From Flavobacteriales bacterium (GTDB taxonomy: Bacteria > Bacteroidota > Bacteroidia > Flavobacteriales_G > JALEGO01), in NCBI GenBank assembly GCA_020631045.1, contig JAHDHZ010000015.1, forward strand, positions 1 to 48,527: a stretch of 48,527 nt of DNA. The letters run 5' to 3'. Shown here in pieces: positions 11,887 through 19,392 of this stretch (its first letter is position 1; each line of letters begins with the position of its first letter). A program made the position numbers and the translations under genes. The notes under the pieces were generated by a model. The model had not been told where the DNA came from. It saw only the letters and a program-made list of their open reading frames with translations, and did not search any database.

Positions 11887-12141
11887 ATGAAGAATAGAAA
11901 AGTAAAATTTAACCGTACTATGCCTTCAGAGCAGCAAACAGCTCAATATAAAAATTTTGATTCCGTCTATGGCAAATTTCAAAAAGTACAACAAAGTAGA
12001 GGCTCTTTTAAAAACCGCTCTTTTTATTTGGGTGGAATGATTATTGTCTTAGTGGCTTTATTGGTGATTTTATCCTCACAAAGAGAAAATAAAAGTAAAA
12101 AACCTACTGAACAACAAAAGCAAGTATTAAATCAGCTCTAG
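11887..12141 (+). CDS. Small single-pass membrane protein after the sigma gene (possible anti-sigma)
   Basis: This 84-residue protein has a basic cytoplasmic N-terminus of about 45 residues, one hydrophobic segment (LGGMIIVLVALLVILSS) and a short 20-residue Lys/Gln-rich tail. It has the same order as the first 75 residues of the membrane protein encoded at 13603, which follows the second sigma gene, but lacks the large extracytoplasmic region. It could be a minimal anti-sigma factor whose cytoplasmic part binds the sigma encoded just upstream, or a truncated remnant of a longer one. There is no direct evidence of sigma binding. Confidence 0.65.
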   Translation: MKNRKVKFNRTMPSEQQTAQYKNFDSVYGKFQKVQQSRGSFKNRSFYLGGMIIVLVALLVILSSQRENKSKKPTEQQKQVLNQL

Positions 12142-13055: not shown

Positions 13056-13610
13056 ATGTTTAAAATTAAAAAACAACTCATAAGTGAGGTAGACCAAATT
13101 AAGTTGGCACAGCAAAATCCAAAAGATTTTGAGCCACTTTATAAAAAGTATTTCTTACAGATCTACAAATTTGTCTACTCAAGAATTGGTTCTGAGAGTA
13201 ATGCTAAAGAAATTACTTCTTTGGCTTTCACAAAGGCCTTAGTAAATGTTGGTAAATACAAAGACAAAGGTTTCCCTTTTTCTTCTTGGTTGTACCGCAT
13301 TGCAAGAAATGAAATCAACGATTTTTACCGCCGAAATCAAAAACAAAAATGCTCAGTGGTGAGCACTGAAGAATTGTTTCATTTAAAAGATGAGATTGAT
13401 GTGCATCATGACCATAGTGATGAACGCATGCAAAAATTAGTGGTTTTACTCAACAGCTTAGAAGAAGATGAAATAGAACTTATCGAGCTTAAATATTTTG
13501 AGAAAAGACCTTATAAAGAGATCGCTGAAATCACCGGATTATCAGAGAGTAATGTAAGGGTAAAAACCCATCGTATTGTGCAAAAACTAAAAACTAAAAA
13601 TAATGGCTAA
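13056..13610 (+). CDS. ECF-family RNA polymerase sigma factor (module 2)
   Basis: The 184-residue protein is a paralogue of the sigma at 11319. It has region 2 (FEPLYKKYFLQIYKFVYSRI, then SSWLYRIARNEINDFYRR) and region 4 (LIELKYFEKRPYKEIAEITG, then SESNVRVKTHRIVQKLK). The two proteins share SSW-RIA-NE and LIEL-YFEK-KEIAEI, which suggests an old duplication. The stop overlaps the start of the membrane-protein gene by eight bases, a typical sigma/anti-sigma coupling. It probably controls envelope genes, perhaps including its own operon. Confidence 0.9.
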   Translation: MFKIKKQLISEVDQIKLAQQNPKDFEPLYKKYFLQIYKFVYSRIGSESNAKEITSLAFTKALVNVGKYKDKGFPFSSWLYRIARNEINDFYRRNQKQKCSVVSTEELFHLKDEIDVHHDHSDERMQKLVVLLNSLEEDEIELIELKYFEKRPYKEIAEITGLSESNVRVKTHRIVQKLKTKNNG

Positions 13611-15243
13611 TATCAAGATCGACAACAACAAGCAACAGCATTTTGAAAAAATCAAGGCCGAAAATTTAGATTTTTCAGCTGTATTAGAAAATGCCTCTAA
13701 GGTGAAAAAGTGGGGGTTAAAAACCTATTTGTTAAATGGCTTAGTTTGCCTTGCGATTTTGGGTGGATTGCTTGCGCTTTTTAACAAAAAGAAAAATACG
13801 CCATCAACTAATAAACAAGAGGTAAAAACAGAGCTTTATGGATTTGCCGCTCCGCTAGAAGACCACAAGGTGGGCTTTGAGCAGTATCAAGTCAAACTAA
13901 AGACTGATGAGCCTACTGAGGTTATGACCAAAGAGGGTACAAAAATTGTGATTCCATCTCAGGGCTTATTAAACCAGGATGGAAGCCCAGTAAAAGGTGA
14001 AATCACCGTAAAGTATCGTTCTTTCAAAGATTTAAAAACCATTATGCAATCGGGTATTCCTATGGTATATGATTCTGCTGGAGTCGCTCGCGTGTTTGAA
14101 TCAGCAGGTATGTTTGAATTGTATGCCTTGCAAAACGATAAGCTTTTGAGCATTGCTAAGGGCAAATCTGTTGAAGTGCAAATGACTTCTAATCATTTAG
14201 GAGATTACTTCAATCAATACTATTTAGATCCTGAAACAAAAGCGTGGAGGTATACAGGCAAAGATACAGCGGGTAGTGTTTCTTTTGCAGATGTACAGGT
14301 ATATGAGGCAGCCTTAGATGTAGAGTTGCAAAAATTAGAGGCTTCAAAACCTTTAATGCCTAAACGCGTAGATGAGCAAAAGCCCTTCATTAAATTGAAT
14401 TTTAACCAAAAAGCATATCCCGAACTGGCGGCATTTAAAGATGTGCGTTTTCAAATACATGAGAGCGAACAAAACTTTGATGCTGATTACGCCAAAGAGT
14501 CTTGGAGCAATGTGGCTATCAATAGAGCCTTGAAAAGTGAAATTTACAATTTATGTTTTTCAAAAAAGGCGCGTGAAGAGTTATGTTTTAAAACTACTCC
14601 AGTAGTTTCAGGGCGCAGTTTTAACACCTCAAAGCGCATGGCTGATAAAATGCTTGAGCAATACAATCAAAAACGTGCGGCTATTAAAAAGGCTAGAGCT
14701 GAGGCTAAGCGTTATTTGATGATTCGATCATCTGAATTAGAAGCCCAAAAAGACAGCAATGCTCAAGAAATTGCCGCTAGAGAATTTATTGATACAGCCG
14801 GAATTTCTATTCAAGGAGGCAGAATGGTACGCGCTAATTTAAGTGCTTCGCCAATCAGGGTATTTCGCATTATGGGTTTTGGTATTTGGAATTGTGATTT
14901 TCCATCAAAAGTGCCCAATCCTGTAGTTTCTAAATTGCGTTTAGCCGATCAAAATGGCACTATTTTAGATGCCCCAAGAATGCAGGTATATGTAGTAGAT
15001 ATAAAACGCAATATGTTATACGGCCATAGAGTTCAGCATGCAGAAATTGCAGCGAGATACAACAATGAAGACGAACCAAAGAACATGCTTTGGGCAACCT
15101 TGGGTGATCGGGTATATTATTATTCAGCTGATGATTTCAACACCCTTGAAGTGGGCAATGCCTTCACAAAAACAATTCAGCTTAATCAAATGTCAGCCAA
15201 ATCTTTTGTAAACCTTACTGACGATGAAATTTTTAATCTATGA
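13603..15243 (+). CDS. Single-pass membrane protein with ZU5-like extracytoplasmic domain (candidate anti-sigma)
   Basis: This 546-residue protein has a cytoplasmic N-terminus of about 40 residues, a transmembrane helix near 41-60 (LLNGLVCLAILGGLLALF) and a long periplasmic part. Residues from about 100 to 200 resemble a ZU5-like domain: TKEGTKIVIPSQGLLNQDGS, GEITVKYRSF and ESAGMFELYAL. The same pattern occurs in the OmpA protein at 16907. Later there is a charged helical stretch of Lys/Arg/Glu/Ala around residues 350-385. Position, overlap with the sigma gene and topology fit an anti-sigma factor whose periplasmic domain senses the envelope. I see no known anti-sigma domain (zinc-binding or FecR), so the role is inferred. 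Confidence 0.75.
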   Translation: MANIKIDNNKQQHFEKIKAENLDFSAVLENASKVKKWGLKTYLLNGLVCLAILGGLLALFNKKKNTPSTNKQEVKTELYGFAAPLEDHKVGFEQYQVKLKTDEPTEVMTKEGTKIVIPSQGLLNQDGSPVKGEITVKYRSFKDLKTIMQSGIPMVYDSAGVARVFESAGMFELYALQNDKLLSIAKGKSVEVQMTSNHLGDYFNQYYLDPETKAWRYTGKDTAGSVSFADVQVYEAALDVELQKLEASKPLMPKRVDEQKPFIKLNFNQKAYPELAAFKDVRFQIHESEQNFDADYAKESWSNVAINRALKSEIYNLCFSKKAREELCFKTTPVVSGRSFNTSKRMADKMLEQYNQKRAAIKKARAEAKRYLMIRSSELEAQKDSNAQEIAAREFIDTAGISIQGGRMVRANLSASPIRVFRIMGFGIWNCDFPSKVPNPVVSKLRLADQNGTILDAPRMQVYVVDIKRNMLYGHRVQHAEIAARYNNEDEPKNMLWATLGDRVYYYSADDFNTLEVGNAFTKTIQLNQMSAKSFVNLTDDEIFNL

Positions 15244-15932
15244 GAATACTTCTTTTTACATATTTCAGTATGTTAATCGCCTTTTCAGGAGTTAGCCAAG
15301 AACATACCTTTAACATTAAAAAAGAGTCACAAACTATCTATATAAATACCCAATATGCCAGTTTGTTTCGCAATGCTTTACATCCATTTAGGTATACCCT
15401 GAGCAATCAAGATACAGCTGGGTATAAGCTGAATTTAATCGGTGGAGAGGTGATTGAAAAAGACAGTGGGCTATTTTTAAAACCAATGGCGATTCCAGAA
15501 GTGTTGCTTGAAATCATAGATCCAGAAGGTAATGTAGTGTACACAAAACAGTACCCCGTTCGCCCAGAACCTCAAGCAATGATAGCAGGTGCTCGAACAG
15601 ATTCTGTACTGCTTGATATGATTTTATTGACCAATCGCATTTATGCAAAATCAGCCAACTTGAAGCCTTTTCGAGTAAAGTCTTTTGAAGTAATTTATGG
15701 TGATCGCATTCGAAAGCTCAAAGGAGATAAACTCAAAGGGCAGGCTAGAATAGACATTTCAAATTTACCTGAAGGATCATTAATTGAGTTCAGAAACATC
15801 ATAATTGAAGTATTTGATGCTTTAGAGCTTGAAATTGCACCTTATTTTGTTACCATGAATCGCGTAAACCCATTAAAAAGCACACGCTTAGAGTTAAACT
15901 ATCAAGGAGAAGACAACAGATTCGAAGACTAA
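15240..15932 (+). CDS. Exported protein of unknown function, end of sigma operon
   Basis: The 230-residue protein has a signal peptide (MRILLFTYFSMLIAFSGVSQ). Its start overlaps the stop of the membrane-protein gene by four bases (ATGA), so it belongs to the same operon. The body is beta-rich, with KPFRVKSFEVIYGDRI and ARIDISNLPEGSLIEFRN near the C-terminus. This faintly recalls the C-terminal domains of GldM-like proteins, but only by eye and with low weight. It may be a soluble periplasmic partner for the sensor encoded just upstream. Confidence 0.7.
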   Translation: MRILLFTYFSMLIAFSGVSQEHTFNIKKESQTIYINTQYASLFRNALHPFRYTLSNQDTAGYKLNLIGGEVIEKDSGLFLKPMAIPEVLLEIIDPEGNVVYTKQYPVRPEPQAMIAGARTDSVLLDMILLTNRIYAKSANLKPFRVKSFEVIYGDRIRKLKGDKLKGQARIDISNLPEGSLIEFRNIIIEVFDALELEIAPYFVTMNRVNPLKSTRLELNYQGEDNRFED

Positions 15933-15998
15933 TTTATATAGTTTCTTATATTACCGTATCTATTTTAAAAATCTACGTTATAAGATAAACTCACCATT

Positions 15999-16403
15999 AT
16001 GAAAAACATCTGCATATTACTTACGCTACCTTTATTGTTGATTTCATGCCATGCTAAACCTGAGCTTTCAGATGCCAAGCAAACCTGCGAGCACTACTTT
16101 GAATTGATCAATCAAAAAGCATATGCCGATGCTTTTGCTTTGAGTGCTGAAGAGTTTACTAGAAGCTCTAATGAAACACAGAGCATTAAAAAAATGCAAA
16201 AGCTGCACGAAAAACTCGGCGATGTAAAAAGCTTTGTGTTAAAAGATAGTGTCTTGTATGAAGAATTTGGCCAACGCGCACATTTTAAACTCGTATACGA
16301 AGTACAACACCCAAGACTCAAAACCGATCAAACTTTCTTAATCGTAAAAGAAGCCGGCGCTCATAAAGTTTATAATCATACGATTGTGAATACTAATTTT
16401 TAG
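15999..16403 (+). CDS. Small lipoprotein, NTF2-like
   Basis: The 134-residue protein has a lipobox, LLLISCHAK, with the cysteine at about residue 17. The mature part (TCEHYFELINQKAYADAFAL, then a C-terminal VYEVQHPRL...FLIVKEAG pattern) looks like the NTF2-like fold of DUF3887/DUF4019-type proteins, in which an N-terminal helix is followed by a curved sheet. Its last 11 bases overlap the 3' end of the convergent gene at 16393. The exact role is unknown. Confidence 0.75.
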   Translation: MKNICILLTLPLLLISCHAKPELSDAKQTCEHYFELINQKAYADAFALSAEEFTRSSNETQSIKKMQKLHEKLGDVKSFVLKDSVLYEEFGQRAHFKLVYEVQHPRLKTDQTFLIVKEAGAHKVYNHTIVNTNF

Positions 16404-16848
16404 ATCTTTTTGGTGTGAATGAAAAATTTCCGCCAAAATAAACATAACTGGCTACATTTTTTTCTTGATGAATAGCAGCGATAAACTTATCATTCATCAG
16501 TTCAATGGCTCTTACGCTAGCAAGTGCAACAGATTCAGAGCGGCTTGTGTTTTCTATTACCTGAATATCTGACACTGAACTATCTGCTCCAACCAAAACT
16601 TTAAACTTCATATAAAACCTACCGGGCTTTTTTACTGTTTGGGGGATCACAAAACTTTTCACCAAATCTTCTTGAAGTTGCATTGCCCCTCCTTGATAAC
16701 GTGCTCCTATGTCAGGACGCCTGACAATTACAAGCTCTTTTTTTTCAACTTGATTTTGCTCTTGATCTTTTGAAACATTAAAAACGTATTCTTGACCCAC
16801 AACTTGAAAAGTCAAAAAAATTAAAATGAGTGTAAAATATTTGTGCAT
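16393..16848 (-). CDS. Exported TonB C-terminal-like domain protein
   Basis: The 151-residue protein has a signal peptide (MHKYFTLILIFLTFQVVGQ). GGAMQLQEDLVKSFVIPQTV and GRFYMKFKVLVGADSSVSDI match the pattern of the TonB C-terminal domain found in many small Bacteroidota proteins. There is no transmembrane anchor or proline-rich linker, so it is not a classical TonB; such proteins probably bind other envelope partners. It is divergent from the OmpA/ZU5-like gene and overlaps the convergent lipoprotein gene by 11 bases. Confidence 0.8.
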   Translation of the reverse strand: MHKYFTLILIFLTFQVVGQEYVFNVSKDQEQNQVEKKELVIVRRPDIGARYQGGAMQLQEDLVKSFVIPQTVKKPGRFYMKFKVLVGADSSVSDIQVIENTSRSESVALASVRAIELMNDKFIAAIHQEKNVASYVYFGGNFSFTPKRSKN

Positions 16849-16906
16849 ACATCATCAAAAAACAAAAACTATACCACAACTTACAATGATTGTGTATCTT
16901 TTGGTC

Positions 16907-18571
16907 ATGAGAACAACGCTACTCACTTTTTGCTTACTTGCTACTCAGTTTATCTTGGCACAACACGATACCAGTTTCATCTACTTTGAAACTGGAAAAT
17001 TCAACTTTAATAAACAAGCCCAAAAAGACTTAGATAAAGCTGTCAAACTACACGAAAAGTACATCATTGACAGCTTATACATCATTGGCCACACTGACAA
17101 TAGAGGCAGCATTGAATACAACGAAACTCTTTCTAAAAATAGAGTAAATGCTGTTTATGACGTTTTATATCAAACTTTTACTAATCTCCGCTCAGATTAC
17201 AAAGGAGAGCTCTCGCCCAGAAAAGTCAATAACTCTGCTAAAAACATGGCTTTAAACAGAAGAGTCGAAGTGCTCTGGTTTTACAGCCCTAAAAATAAGC
17301 TTTCTAAGATGCAGCGTAAAGCCATGCAAGAAACTGAAATTGATTATAGTCATGAGCTTAAAGAAAAACCATTAGAAGAAAATAAGCCTGTTCACAAGAC
17401 TCAAGATGTTATAATCAAACAACACCTTGAAGATCAAAAACAATTCACTGAATTACTCGAAAAAGAAAATGCTAAAGCTGTTGTGGTCAAAAAAACAATT
17501 GACAACACTCAGCCCTCGATCATCAAAACAGAAAAAGGGACTGTATTGATCATTCAAGAAGATTGTTTTGTTACCCCTCAAGGAACAGCACCTAAAGAAG
17601 TACATGTAGAAGTAAAAGAATATTATGCCCTTTCAGATATAGCTTTGGGTGGATTAAGTACAAAAACAAGTAAAGGTAAGTTGCTTAAAACAGGTGGTAT
17701 GATAGAGGTAAGCGCCAAAGATGAAACCGGAAGCGATTTAATTTTAAAAAAATCAATGACCGTGAGTCTTCCTACCAGTAAAAGCAAAAAAGACAATAAA
17801 ATGATCTTGTATGAAGCTGTAGAATCAAAAAATGTAAAAAACCCAACTGTTTGGAAGAAATCTAAAACTCCAAATTATAAAAAGCCTTTTACACTTAATA
17901 AAGAACAGATCTTAGCCCAGCTTGAAAAGAATTATGGCAGTCCTGAGGTTATTTTACAGTCTATGATTGAACATGGGGTAGAACAAACGATTAATGATGC
18001 GGTAGACCACACTATAAAACAGGCGATTAACTATCCATTAAAAAAAGGATATGAACTTGTTAGAAGAAAGCACTTAAAATTTAAAGGTTATGACAAACAA
18101 GCCATTGATCGCATCATCAAAAGTGAGCGTGAAAAATTAGAACTCATGCAAACGCAACGCTACATGTTCACAGCAACTAACCTTGAAAAACTCAACTGTG
18201 ACGCTGATGGTATTCAAGGGGTAAAAGGTAAGCGTATTATTCAACGATTTAATATTGATGGAGGGCTTGAAAATGGGTATTTATATATGCTATTTCCTGA
18301 TAAACAAGTAGTTTGTTTGGCAGATGCTACACTAAAGCCTTTAGAAGAAGTTAATGCAGGAGATTTTTTAGGCACAAATAGAGAGACTAAATTCAGTAAA
18401 ACCCCAGAAGGAAACTCAGTTATTGTATTTGGATTTAGAGTGCGTAACGGAAAATTTGAAAGTTGTCAAAAACGCATTACTACTTCAATCACACCAGAAC
18501 ACCTGTCTTTTAAACCCTCTTCTTTAATGCAGTTTAAACAAGAAATCAATGCTTTGCCTTTTGCGCTGTAG
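16907..18571 (+). CDS. OmpA-domain protein with ZU5-like domain
   Basis: I chose ATG at 16907 because MRTTLLTFCLLATQFILAQ is a signal peptide; the longer frame from 16826 runs into the divergent gene. The 554-residue product has an N-terminal OmpA-like peptidoglycan-binding domain (about residues 25-130) with IYFETGKFNFNKQAQ, IIGHTDNRGSIEYN and LNRRVEVLW. A ZU5-like domain follows (about 200-310) with GTVLIIQEDCFVTPQGT and LLKTGGMIEVSAKDETG. The C-terminal 230 residues are Lys-rich with no known domain. OmpA domains are usually C-terminal, so this order is uncommon. It shares the ZU5-like part with the membrane protein at 13603, hinting at a common ligand or direct partnership. Confidence 0.85.
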   Translation: MRTTLLTFCLLATQFILAQHDTSFIYFETGKFNFNKQAQKDLDKAVKLHEKYIIDSLYIIGHTDNRGSIEYNETLSKNRVNAVYDVLYQTFTNLRSDYKGELSPRKVNNSAKNMALNRRVEVLWFYSPKNKLSKMQRKAMQETEIDYSHELKEKPLEENKPVHKTQDVIIKQHLEDQKQFTELLEKENAKAVVVKKTIDNTQPSIIKTEKGTVLIIQEDCFVTPQGTAPKEVHVEVKEYYALSDIALGGLSTKTSKGKLLKTGGMIEVSAKDETGSDLILKKSMTVSLPTSKSKKDNKMILYEAVESKNVKNPTVWKKSKTPNYKKPFTLNKEQILAQLEKNYGSPEVILQSMIEHGVEQTINDAVDHTIKQAINYPLKKGYELVRRKHLKFKGYDKQAIDRIIKSEREKLELMQTQRYMFTATNLEKLNCDADGIQGVKGKRIIQRFNIDGGLENGYLYMLFPDKQVVCLADATLKPLEEVNAGDFLGTNRETKFSKTPEGNSVIVFGFRVRNGKFESCQKRITTSITPEHLSFKPSSLMQFKQEINALPFAL

Positions 18572-18578
18572 TTAGAGG

Positions 18579-18983
18579 CTAAAAATCATCATTTCTTACT
18601 CTTAACGTATACATCACAAATCCCTCTCCTCCATCATCCAGCCACTGATCACAGTCATTTAAGTCTTTATTGAACGATTTTTCTGCCCCATCTATCTTTG
18701 AGCTCAAGTATTGCATTTCAAGCTGGTTAAACCCATTCTTTTTTCTGCAATCACGTTCTTTGATGACTATAGTCTGAGTGGTGAAAATTTGCTTTGAGTT
18801 TCCTTGAACGGAGTCTGATTGTACAAGCTCAGTACCTTCAAGTTTGTAGCTAAAATACACCACGTTATTTGTAAAGTTGTGAATGCTGTAATAACCTGTA
18901 GTCGTAGCCTCTTTTTTACATCCACTACACACTAAAAAAGACATTAAAATCAATGTTAATTTATGGTTCAAAATCGTTTTCAT
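18579..18983 (-). CDS. Small lipoprotein (paralogue of the next gene)
   Basis: I chose ATG at 18983 to give MKTILNHKLTLILMSFLVCSGC, a lipoprotein signal with the lipid cysteine at residue 22; the frame from 19016 adds an unlikely MIIIKPLFLE lead. The mature part is about 110 residues and beta-rich (YYSIHNFTNNVVYFSYKL). The C-terminus CDQWLDDGG...YTLRVRNDDF parallels CGAWLKSGR...FILRVYENDF of the upstream gene, so the two are tandem paralogues. The start overlaps the end of that gene by 23 bases. Function is unknown. Confidence 0.75.
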   Translation of the reverse strand: MKTILNHKLTLILMSFLVCSGCKKEATTTGYYSIHNFTNNVVYFSYKLEGTELVQSDSVQGNSKQIFTTQTIVIKERDCRKKNGFNQLEMQYLSSKIDGAEKSFNKDLNDCDQWLDDGGEGFVMYTLRVRNDDF

Positions 18984-19392
18984 ACACTCTAAGAATAAAG
19001 GTTTGATAATGATCATAGCGCCCAGATTTTAACCAAGCCCCACAAGTGTTAGGGTCAGGGGTATAAAAATGTGTGAGCAAAGCAGCATCTTTAAATTCAA
19101 TTTGCAATACTGAAATACCGCCTATGGCAGTCGAGTCTGCAACTTGCCCTCGGCAAGCGACATTTTTACTCAATTCAGTGCCTAAAAAAGCAAATATTTT
19201 AGCCTCTCCTGGTGCAATGGTGTCTGTTTGAATAGTAAAATCACCAAAGGTATATTCGTTTAAATTCTCCCAGCTGATGATCACCTCTTGTTTGGTTTTA
19301 TTGTGCAAGATATACTCAACATTTGAAAACACCACCGAACGGCATCCACCCAACATCATCATTGCTCCAAAAAATAATGGTAAAGCGCGCAT
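18961..19392 (-). CDS. Small lipoprotein (paralogue of the previous gene)
   Basis: The 143-residue protein has a signal MRALPLFFGAMMMLGGC with the cysteine in the lipobox. The mature domain shows the same pattern as its downstream neighbour: VEYILHNKTKQEVIISW near the start, two central cysteines, and an ILRVYENDF end. Its start codon overlaps the stop of the next upstream gene by one base (TAATG), so three lipoprotein genes are coupled in one minus-strand operon. Confidence 0.78.
   Translation of the reverse strand: MRALPLFFGAMMMLGGCRSVVFSNVEYILHNKTKQEVIISWENLNEYTFGDFTIQTDTIAPGEAKIFAFLGTELSKNVACRGQVADSTAIGGISVLQIEFKDAALLTHFYTPDPNTCGAWLKSGRYDHYQTFILRVYENDFEP

Follow-up and report, generated by a model that had tools for sequence, protein, structure and literature searches.

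The putative anti-sigma factor and the OmpA-domain protein encoded at positions 13603 and 16907 of the DNA under study share a homologous ZU-like module, confirmed by profile comparison, and most likely both belong to one Bacteroidota envelope superfamily, which is defined by a C-terminal pair of modules (ZU-CT). In the best overall explanation, to which we assign a probability of about 0.7, the superfamily is borne on different anchors, the anti-sigma version would act as a partner-sensing switch, and the OmpA version would be a separate paralogue. The DNA analysed, referred to as the window, is the whole stretch of 48,527 nucleotides from the Flavobacteriales bacterium contig JAHDHZ010000015.1 (GCA_020631045.1, positions 1 to 48,527).

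Organisation of the locus

Table 1. Position, strand and supporting evidence of the genes and modules discussed, in window coordinates.
Feature	Position	Strand	Evidence
ECF sigma factor 1, 186 aa	11319..11879	+	Pfam Sigma70_r2 7e-11, r4_2 1e-10
Stand-alone short anti-sigma segment and TM without ectodomain, 84 aa (putative anti-sigma 1)	11887..12141	+	N-terminal HMM match 1.4e-17
ECF sigma factor 2, 184 aa, overlapping the 13603 gene	13056..13610	+	Pfam Sigma70_r2 3e-14, r4_2 3e-12
Putative anti-sigma factor, 546 aa	13603..15243	+	Gene confirmed at this position
ZU5-like module of the putative anti-sigma factor, residues 90-222	13870..14268	+	Profile comparison
CT module of the putative anti-sigma factor ('FGIWNCDFP')	14854..15240	+	Profile and sequence comparison
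Secreted GldM D3/D4-like protein, 230 aa, 4-base overlap with the 13603 gene	15240..15932	+	Homology to relatives
OmpA-domain protein with ZU5-like and CT modules, 554 aa from ATG	16907..18571	+	Pfam OmpA 4.8e-10
OmpA peptidoglycan-binding-type domain, motif GHTDNRGSIEYNETLSKNRV	16964..17296	+	Pfam OmpA and sequence reading
ZU5-like module of the OmpA protein, residues 191-318	17477..17860	+	Profile comparison, predicted structure
CT module of the OmpA protein ('LEKLNCDADG')	18155..18568	+	Profile comparison, predicted structure

The 13603 protein consists, in order, of a cytoplasmic segment of ~40 aa, a transmembrane region (TM, ~42-60), the periplasmic ZU5-like module, a middle domain, a linker and the CT module. 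It has an orthologue within the same genus that is 43% identical along the full length, and an orthologue of sigma factor 2 was found at locus L097 (3.5e-66). The 16907 protein carries a signal peptide, and a gene on the opposite strand lies between its gene and the sigma operon.

An NTF2-like protein is encoded at 15999-16403; a same-genus relative stands in another sigma operon (L098:12753-13157, 3.2e-32), and the placement of the gene resembles a merger of two operons in the window. Two adjacent small proteins on the minus strand (18579-19392) were mutually similar (phmmer about 1e-4).

A ZU-like module common to both proteins

Direct comparison of the 13603 and 16907 proteins gave a weak match (BLASTP, single comparison, 24% identity over 116 aa, E = 0.026). 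Two alignments were built independently, one of eight modules of the anti-sigma type and one of twelve modules that were OmpA-type or OmpA-like, and each was made into its own profile. The two profiles matched end to end over 121 columns with 99.7% probability and a score of 134-135 (hhalign, E = 1.5e-24 for the single comparison), when unrelated domain pairs stayed below 1%, a reversed profile reached 0.9%, and 100 column shuffles peaked at a score of 20.1 against 135 for the true pair. Two bridging homologues, G003:C653 and G001:C15, which come from same-family genomes, were matched by both window proteins. The shared module is about 125 residues long. AlphaFold predicted beta strands and one short helix for the anti-sigma module (pLDDT 90.7), and beta folds for the ZU-linker-CT part of the OmpA protein (mean pLDDT 79.8).

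The initial annotation had aligned two segments of these proteins by eye over about 90 residues and had set a profile-profile alignment beforehand as the check. The alignment proved genuine by that check, by the shuffle controls and by the bridging homologues, and the further claim that a periplasmic module is common to an OmpA protein and a membrane protein held as well, the periplasmic location being predicted. In the tree, the anti-sigma ZU module grouped with its same-genus orthologue, and the two window modules were placed in different parts; on this topology alone, local duplication was rejected as their origin.

The similarity extends beyond the match first noticed, as a second module (CT, with an 'NCD' motif) ends both proteins. 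The CT profile of OmpA-type and lipoprotein members matched the anti-sigma CT profile with 67% probability and a score of 31.6, the best of 100 shuffles scoring 17.5, so that support for a common origin of CT in the two subfamilies is moderate at the profile level. Most members carry both ZU and CT, the latter at the C-terminal end of the protein. No profile match was obtained between CT and the ZU-like module (0.75%), and the idea that CT duplicates the ZU-like module was rejected. A Hint-like reading of the C-terminus of the OmpA protein was dropped, because the region aligns with the CT module.

Distribution and anchors

At least one module was present in 27 of the 42 genomes of the order (E ≤ 0.001) and in 45 of the 396 genomes sampled across the phylum (E ≤ 1e-4). 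The anchors comprised a lipoprotein signal, an OmpA domain, an LRR region, and a single-TM protein encoded behind an ECF sigma gene. The ZU-like module is a common building block of Bacteroidota envelope proteins, on many unrelated anchors, so that its presence in both window proteins does not by itself demonstrate one signalling route.

Relation to the ZU5 family

ZU5-ZU5-UPA tandems are known from ankyrin, PIDD, UNC5 and NLRP1/CARD8. The Pfam ZU5 family (PF00791) had no match in the window proteins and none in the genome of the window at E ≤ 10, was absent from the best 25 of 33 families listed for 63 module members at E ≤ 10, and the module does not reach the Pfam gathering score for ZU5. 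Searches of Pfam, NCBIfam and PDB sequences with the module returned no family among the matches listed. A profile of the 63 members was collinear with the bacterial ZU5 domains of the phylum at 65.6% probability, with a score (30.6) above all of 150 shuffles (best 16.7). In a PDB fold search with the ZU-CT model of the OmpA protein, ankyrin ZU5A-ZU5B came first (E = 5.6e-4, probability 0.99) at a TM-score of only 0.28, and ankyrin-named entries, likewise with low TM-scores, occupied the first six places. The anti-sigma module alone gave nothing significant, with no ZU5 structure among the 50 entries listed.

The likeness to ZU5 thus lies in a remote collinear profile match and in the top fold match of the two modules of the OmpA protein, and the difference in the lack of a Pfam match among those listed, the low TM-scores and the conserved columns of the module, in which no cleavage motif of the C-x-H or H-F-S type, and no conserved autoproteolysis residue, was seen. 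Autoproteolysis is not universal among ZU5 domains, and a missing cleavage motif leaves a ZU5 fold possible. As profile and fold evidence are mixed, the module is named ZU5-like rather than a ZU5 member: the label given in the initial annotation is a fair one for a remote resemblance only.

Linkage to ECF sigma factors

Using a sequence pattern of the anti-sigma type (F[EN]S[AG]GM), 80 named loci were retrieved, which, being picked by a subtype motif, speak for that subtype rather than for the superfamily at large. An ECF sigma gene was located directly upstream on the same strand in 63 of the 80 (64 with the window) and somewhere in the flank in 67, and in most loci the sigma gene and the gene of the one-TM protein overlapped or were closely spaced. 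The encoded proteins share a conserved cytoplasmic segment of ~40 residues followed by one TM. On the basis of this gene context, in which coupling to an ECF sigma gene is taken as one mark of an anti-sigma factor, the status of a putative ECF anti-sigma factor proposed earlier for the 13603 protein is supported.

It resembles single-pass ECF anti-sigma factors in its position behind the sigma gene, the short cytoplasmic segment, the one TM and the large periplasmic part, and differs from them in an ectodomain of a type that was not found in Pfam, in the NCBIfam matches or in the papers searched. Pfam recognised no anti-sigma domain in the protein, including the zinc-finger, RskA and FecR types, which would fit a co-transcribed structural or sensor protein without direct contact to the sigma factor. 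We regard such a role as very improbable, given the sigma gene immediately upstream in most loci, the conservation of the short cytoplasmic segment, and the fact that stand-alone segment-TM proteins are encoded right behind sigma genes.

One such protein is the 84-aa product in the window, which was matched by an N-terminal HMM built without it; its relative in the same-genus genome (L098, 7.9e-18) is full-length, at 556 aa. Split organisations were also found at L186:288-1967, in the order sigma factor, 71-aa segment-TM protein, ZU-CT protein and GldM-like protein, and at L219:6636-8503, where the sigma factor and a 70-aa segment-TM protein are followed by a separate protein with, as judged by eye, an apparent middle domain of the family type. 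The N-terminal match and these splits would fit a split or redundant regulation, in which the partner of sigma factor 1 has lost its ectodomain and the sensory part is supplied in trans by a separate ZU-CT protein, for instance the product of the 13603 or the 16907 gene. No ZU-CT gene is positioned directly behind the 84-aa gene in the window, however, and some splits may be frameshifts (L170, L247); we consider sensing in trans very unlikely. The same-genus genome also encodes, adjoining a sigma/anti-sigma pair, an 832-aa protein (L098:13183-15678) that contains a CAP domain and matches OmpA weakly.

A GldM-like protein in the operon

The window protein encoded at 15240 had no direct Pfam match. 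Its orthologue in L097 (4.9e-51) is itself a weak GldM_4th match (0.0019), and its counterpart in L098 matched both GldM_4th (1.3e-15) and GldM_3rd (1.8e-5). The likeness to GldM/PorM of type IX secretion thus concerns D3-D4, through the same-genus partner family; a full-length GldM has an N-terminal TM and D1-D4, whereas the 15240 protein is short (230 aa), secreted and without the GldM N-terminal domains.

A GldM-like gene was present at most two genes downstream in a subset of the sigma-linked loci (17 of the 63, plus the window), and was not detected near the sigma/anti-sigma pair in the other 46. In the same-genus genome, GldM-like genes follow three ZU-CT proteins; a sigma gene is directly upstream of two of these, and the third is at a contig end. 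A locus of the gldL-gldM-gldN type is present in the genome of the window (G000:C15, L261); a truncated GldM there was rejected, as there is an assembly gap within the gldM frame.

The OmpA protein as a probable separate paralogue

The OmpA domain of the 16907 protein passes the Pfam cut-off and reached no NCBIfam cut-off among the matches listed. By sequence reading, the D and R positions of peptidoglycan binding are present (GHTDNRG..NETLSKNRV), as in OmpA/Pal-type proteins, from which the protein differs in that its OmpA domain is followed by the ZU-CT pair.

From the shared module, the initial annotation had proposed that the two proteins sense a common ligand or dimerise, giving a route from the cell wall to the sigma factor. 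If they made contact through their ZU-CT modules or shared a ligand, cell-wall state would control sigma factor 2. Both proteins are predicted to be periplasmic, and the genome of the window holds only two module copies, both in the window and about 3.3 kb apart, a proximity to which we would give a chance of roughly 0.3% by our own estimate. Furthermore, with the types assigned from the directly adjacent genes in draft genomes, nine of the 42 genomes of the order had the sigma-linked type, eight the OmpA type and five both, against 1.7 expected; the nominal p-value (Fisher, 0.006) ignores kinship and is inflated, because the genomes with both types are close kin.

Against such a route, no gene combining OmpA and ZU was found within about 6 kb in any of the 80 anti-sigma-type loci, near which two OmpA genes occurred, both without the module. 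The same-genus genome likewise yielded no OmpA-ZU gene, though the anti-sigma orthologue is kept there, and the 16907 gene forms a separate transcription unit. The subfamily-specific loop, which is the most conserved one of the anti-sigma type, also differs, reading 'SGIPMxYDSAGxxxxFESAGM' in the anti-sigma type and 'GLxTxSxxxxLESGGM' in the OmpA type; the part of the former signature that coincides with the retrieval pattern is biased by retrieval, and the 'SGIPMxYDSAG' loop is not. A common ligand, dimerisation or a single route was accordingly not borne out, given also the many anchors of the module. In the genome of the window, we consider a wall-to-sigma route, for which conserved genomic support was not found, quite unlikely. 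In the preferred explanation, the OmpA version represents a paralogue in its own right and not a conserved component of the sigma switch.

Proposed mechanism and implications

In the preferred explanation, the short conserved cytoplasmic segment of the 13603 protein would hold the co-encoded ECF sigma factor, and the ZU-CT pair would serve as a periplasmic platform for protein binding. Binding or loss of a partner at this platform would be relayed through the TM and lead to release of the sigma factor, and the best candidate for the partner would be the co-encoded GldM D3/D4-like protein. In the 16907 protein, the ZU-CT pair would be fixed to peptidoglycan via the OmpA domain. The homology of the ZU-like modules, the architectures, the linkage to sigma genes and, in a subset, that to GldM-like genes are directly observed, whereas anti-sigma activity, protein binding, the signal and the partner are inferred, the platform mechanism being drawn from gene order and fold class.

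A bolder version, which we hold to be unlikely, would define a new class of Bacteroidota TM anti-sigma factors that sense periplasmic protein partners via a bacterial ZU5-UPA-like tandem, with a secreted GldM D3/D4-like protein as a dedicated co-factor, and so couple the state of the envelope or of type IX secretion to transcription. The wall-bound tandem of the OmpA protein would then provide a second input in the genome of the window, possibly to the ectodomain-less anti-sigma 1.

In the literature searched, which covered few subscription journals, no paper joining ECF sigma factors, GldM and anti-sigma factors was found, and the only one joining ZU5 and anti-sigma factors was a 2012 survey of polymorphic toxins, in which ZU5 is regarded as an autoprocessing domain (PMC3482391).

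Although the ZU-CT pair is found widely among the envelope proteins of Bacteroidota, no Pfam or NCBIfam family appeared among its listed matches. It marks a recurrent sigma/anti-sigma unit, the conserved neighbourhood of which supplies concrete candidates for the partner. The ZU5 family is used by ankyrins and by inflammasome proteins, and if the kinship to ZU5 is true, a bacterial tandem would be added to this family.
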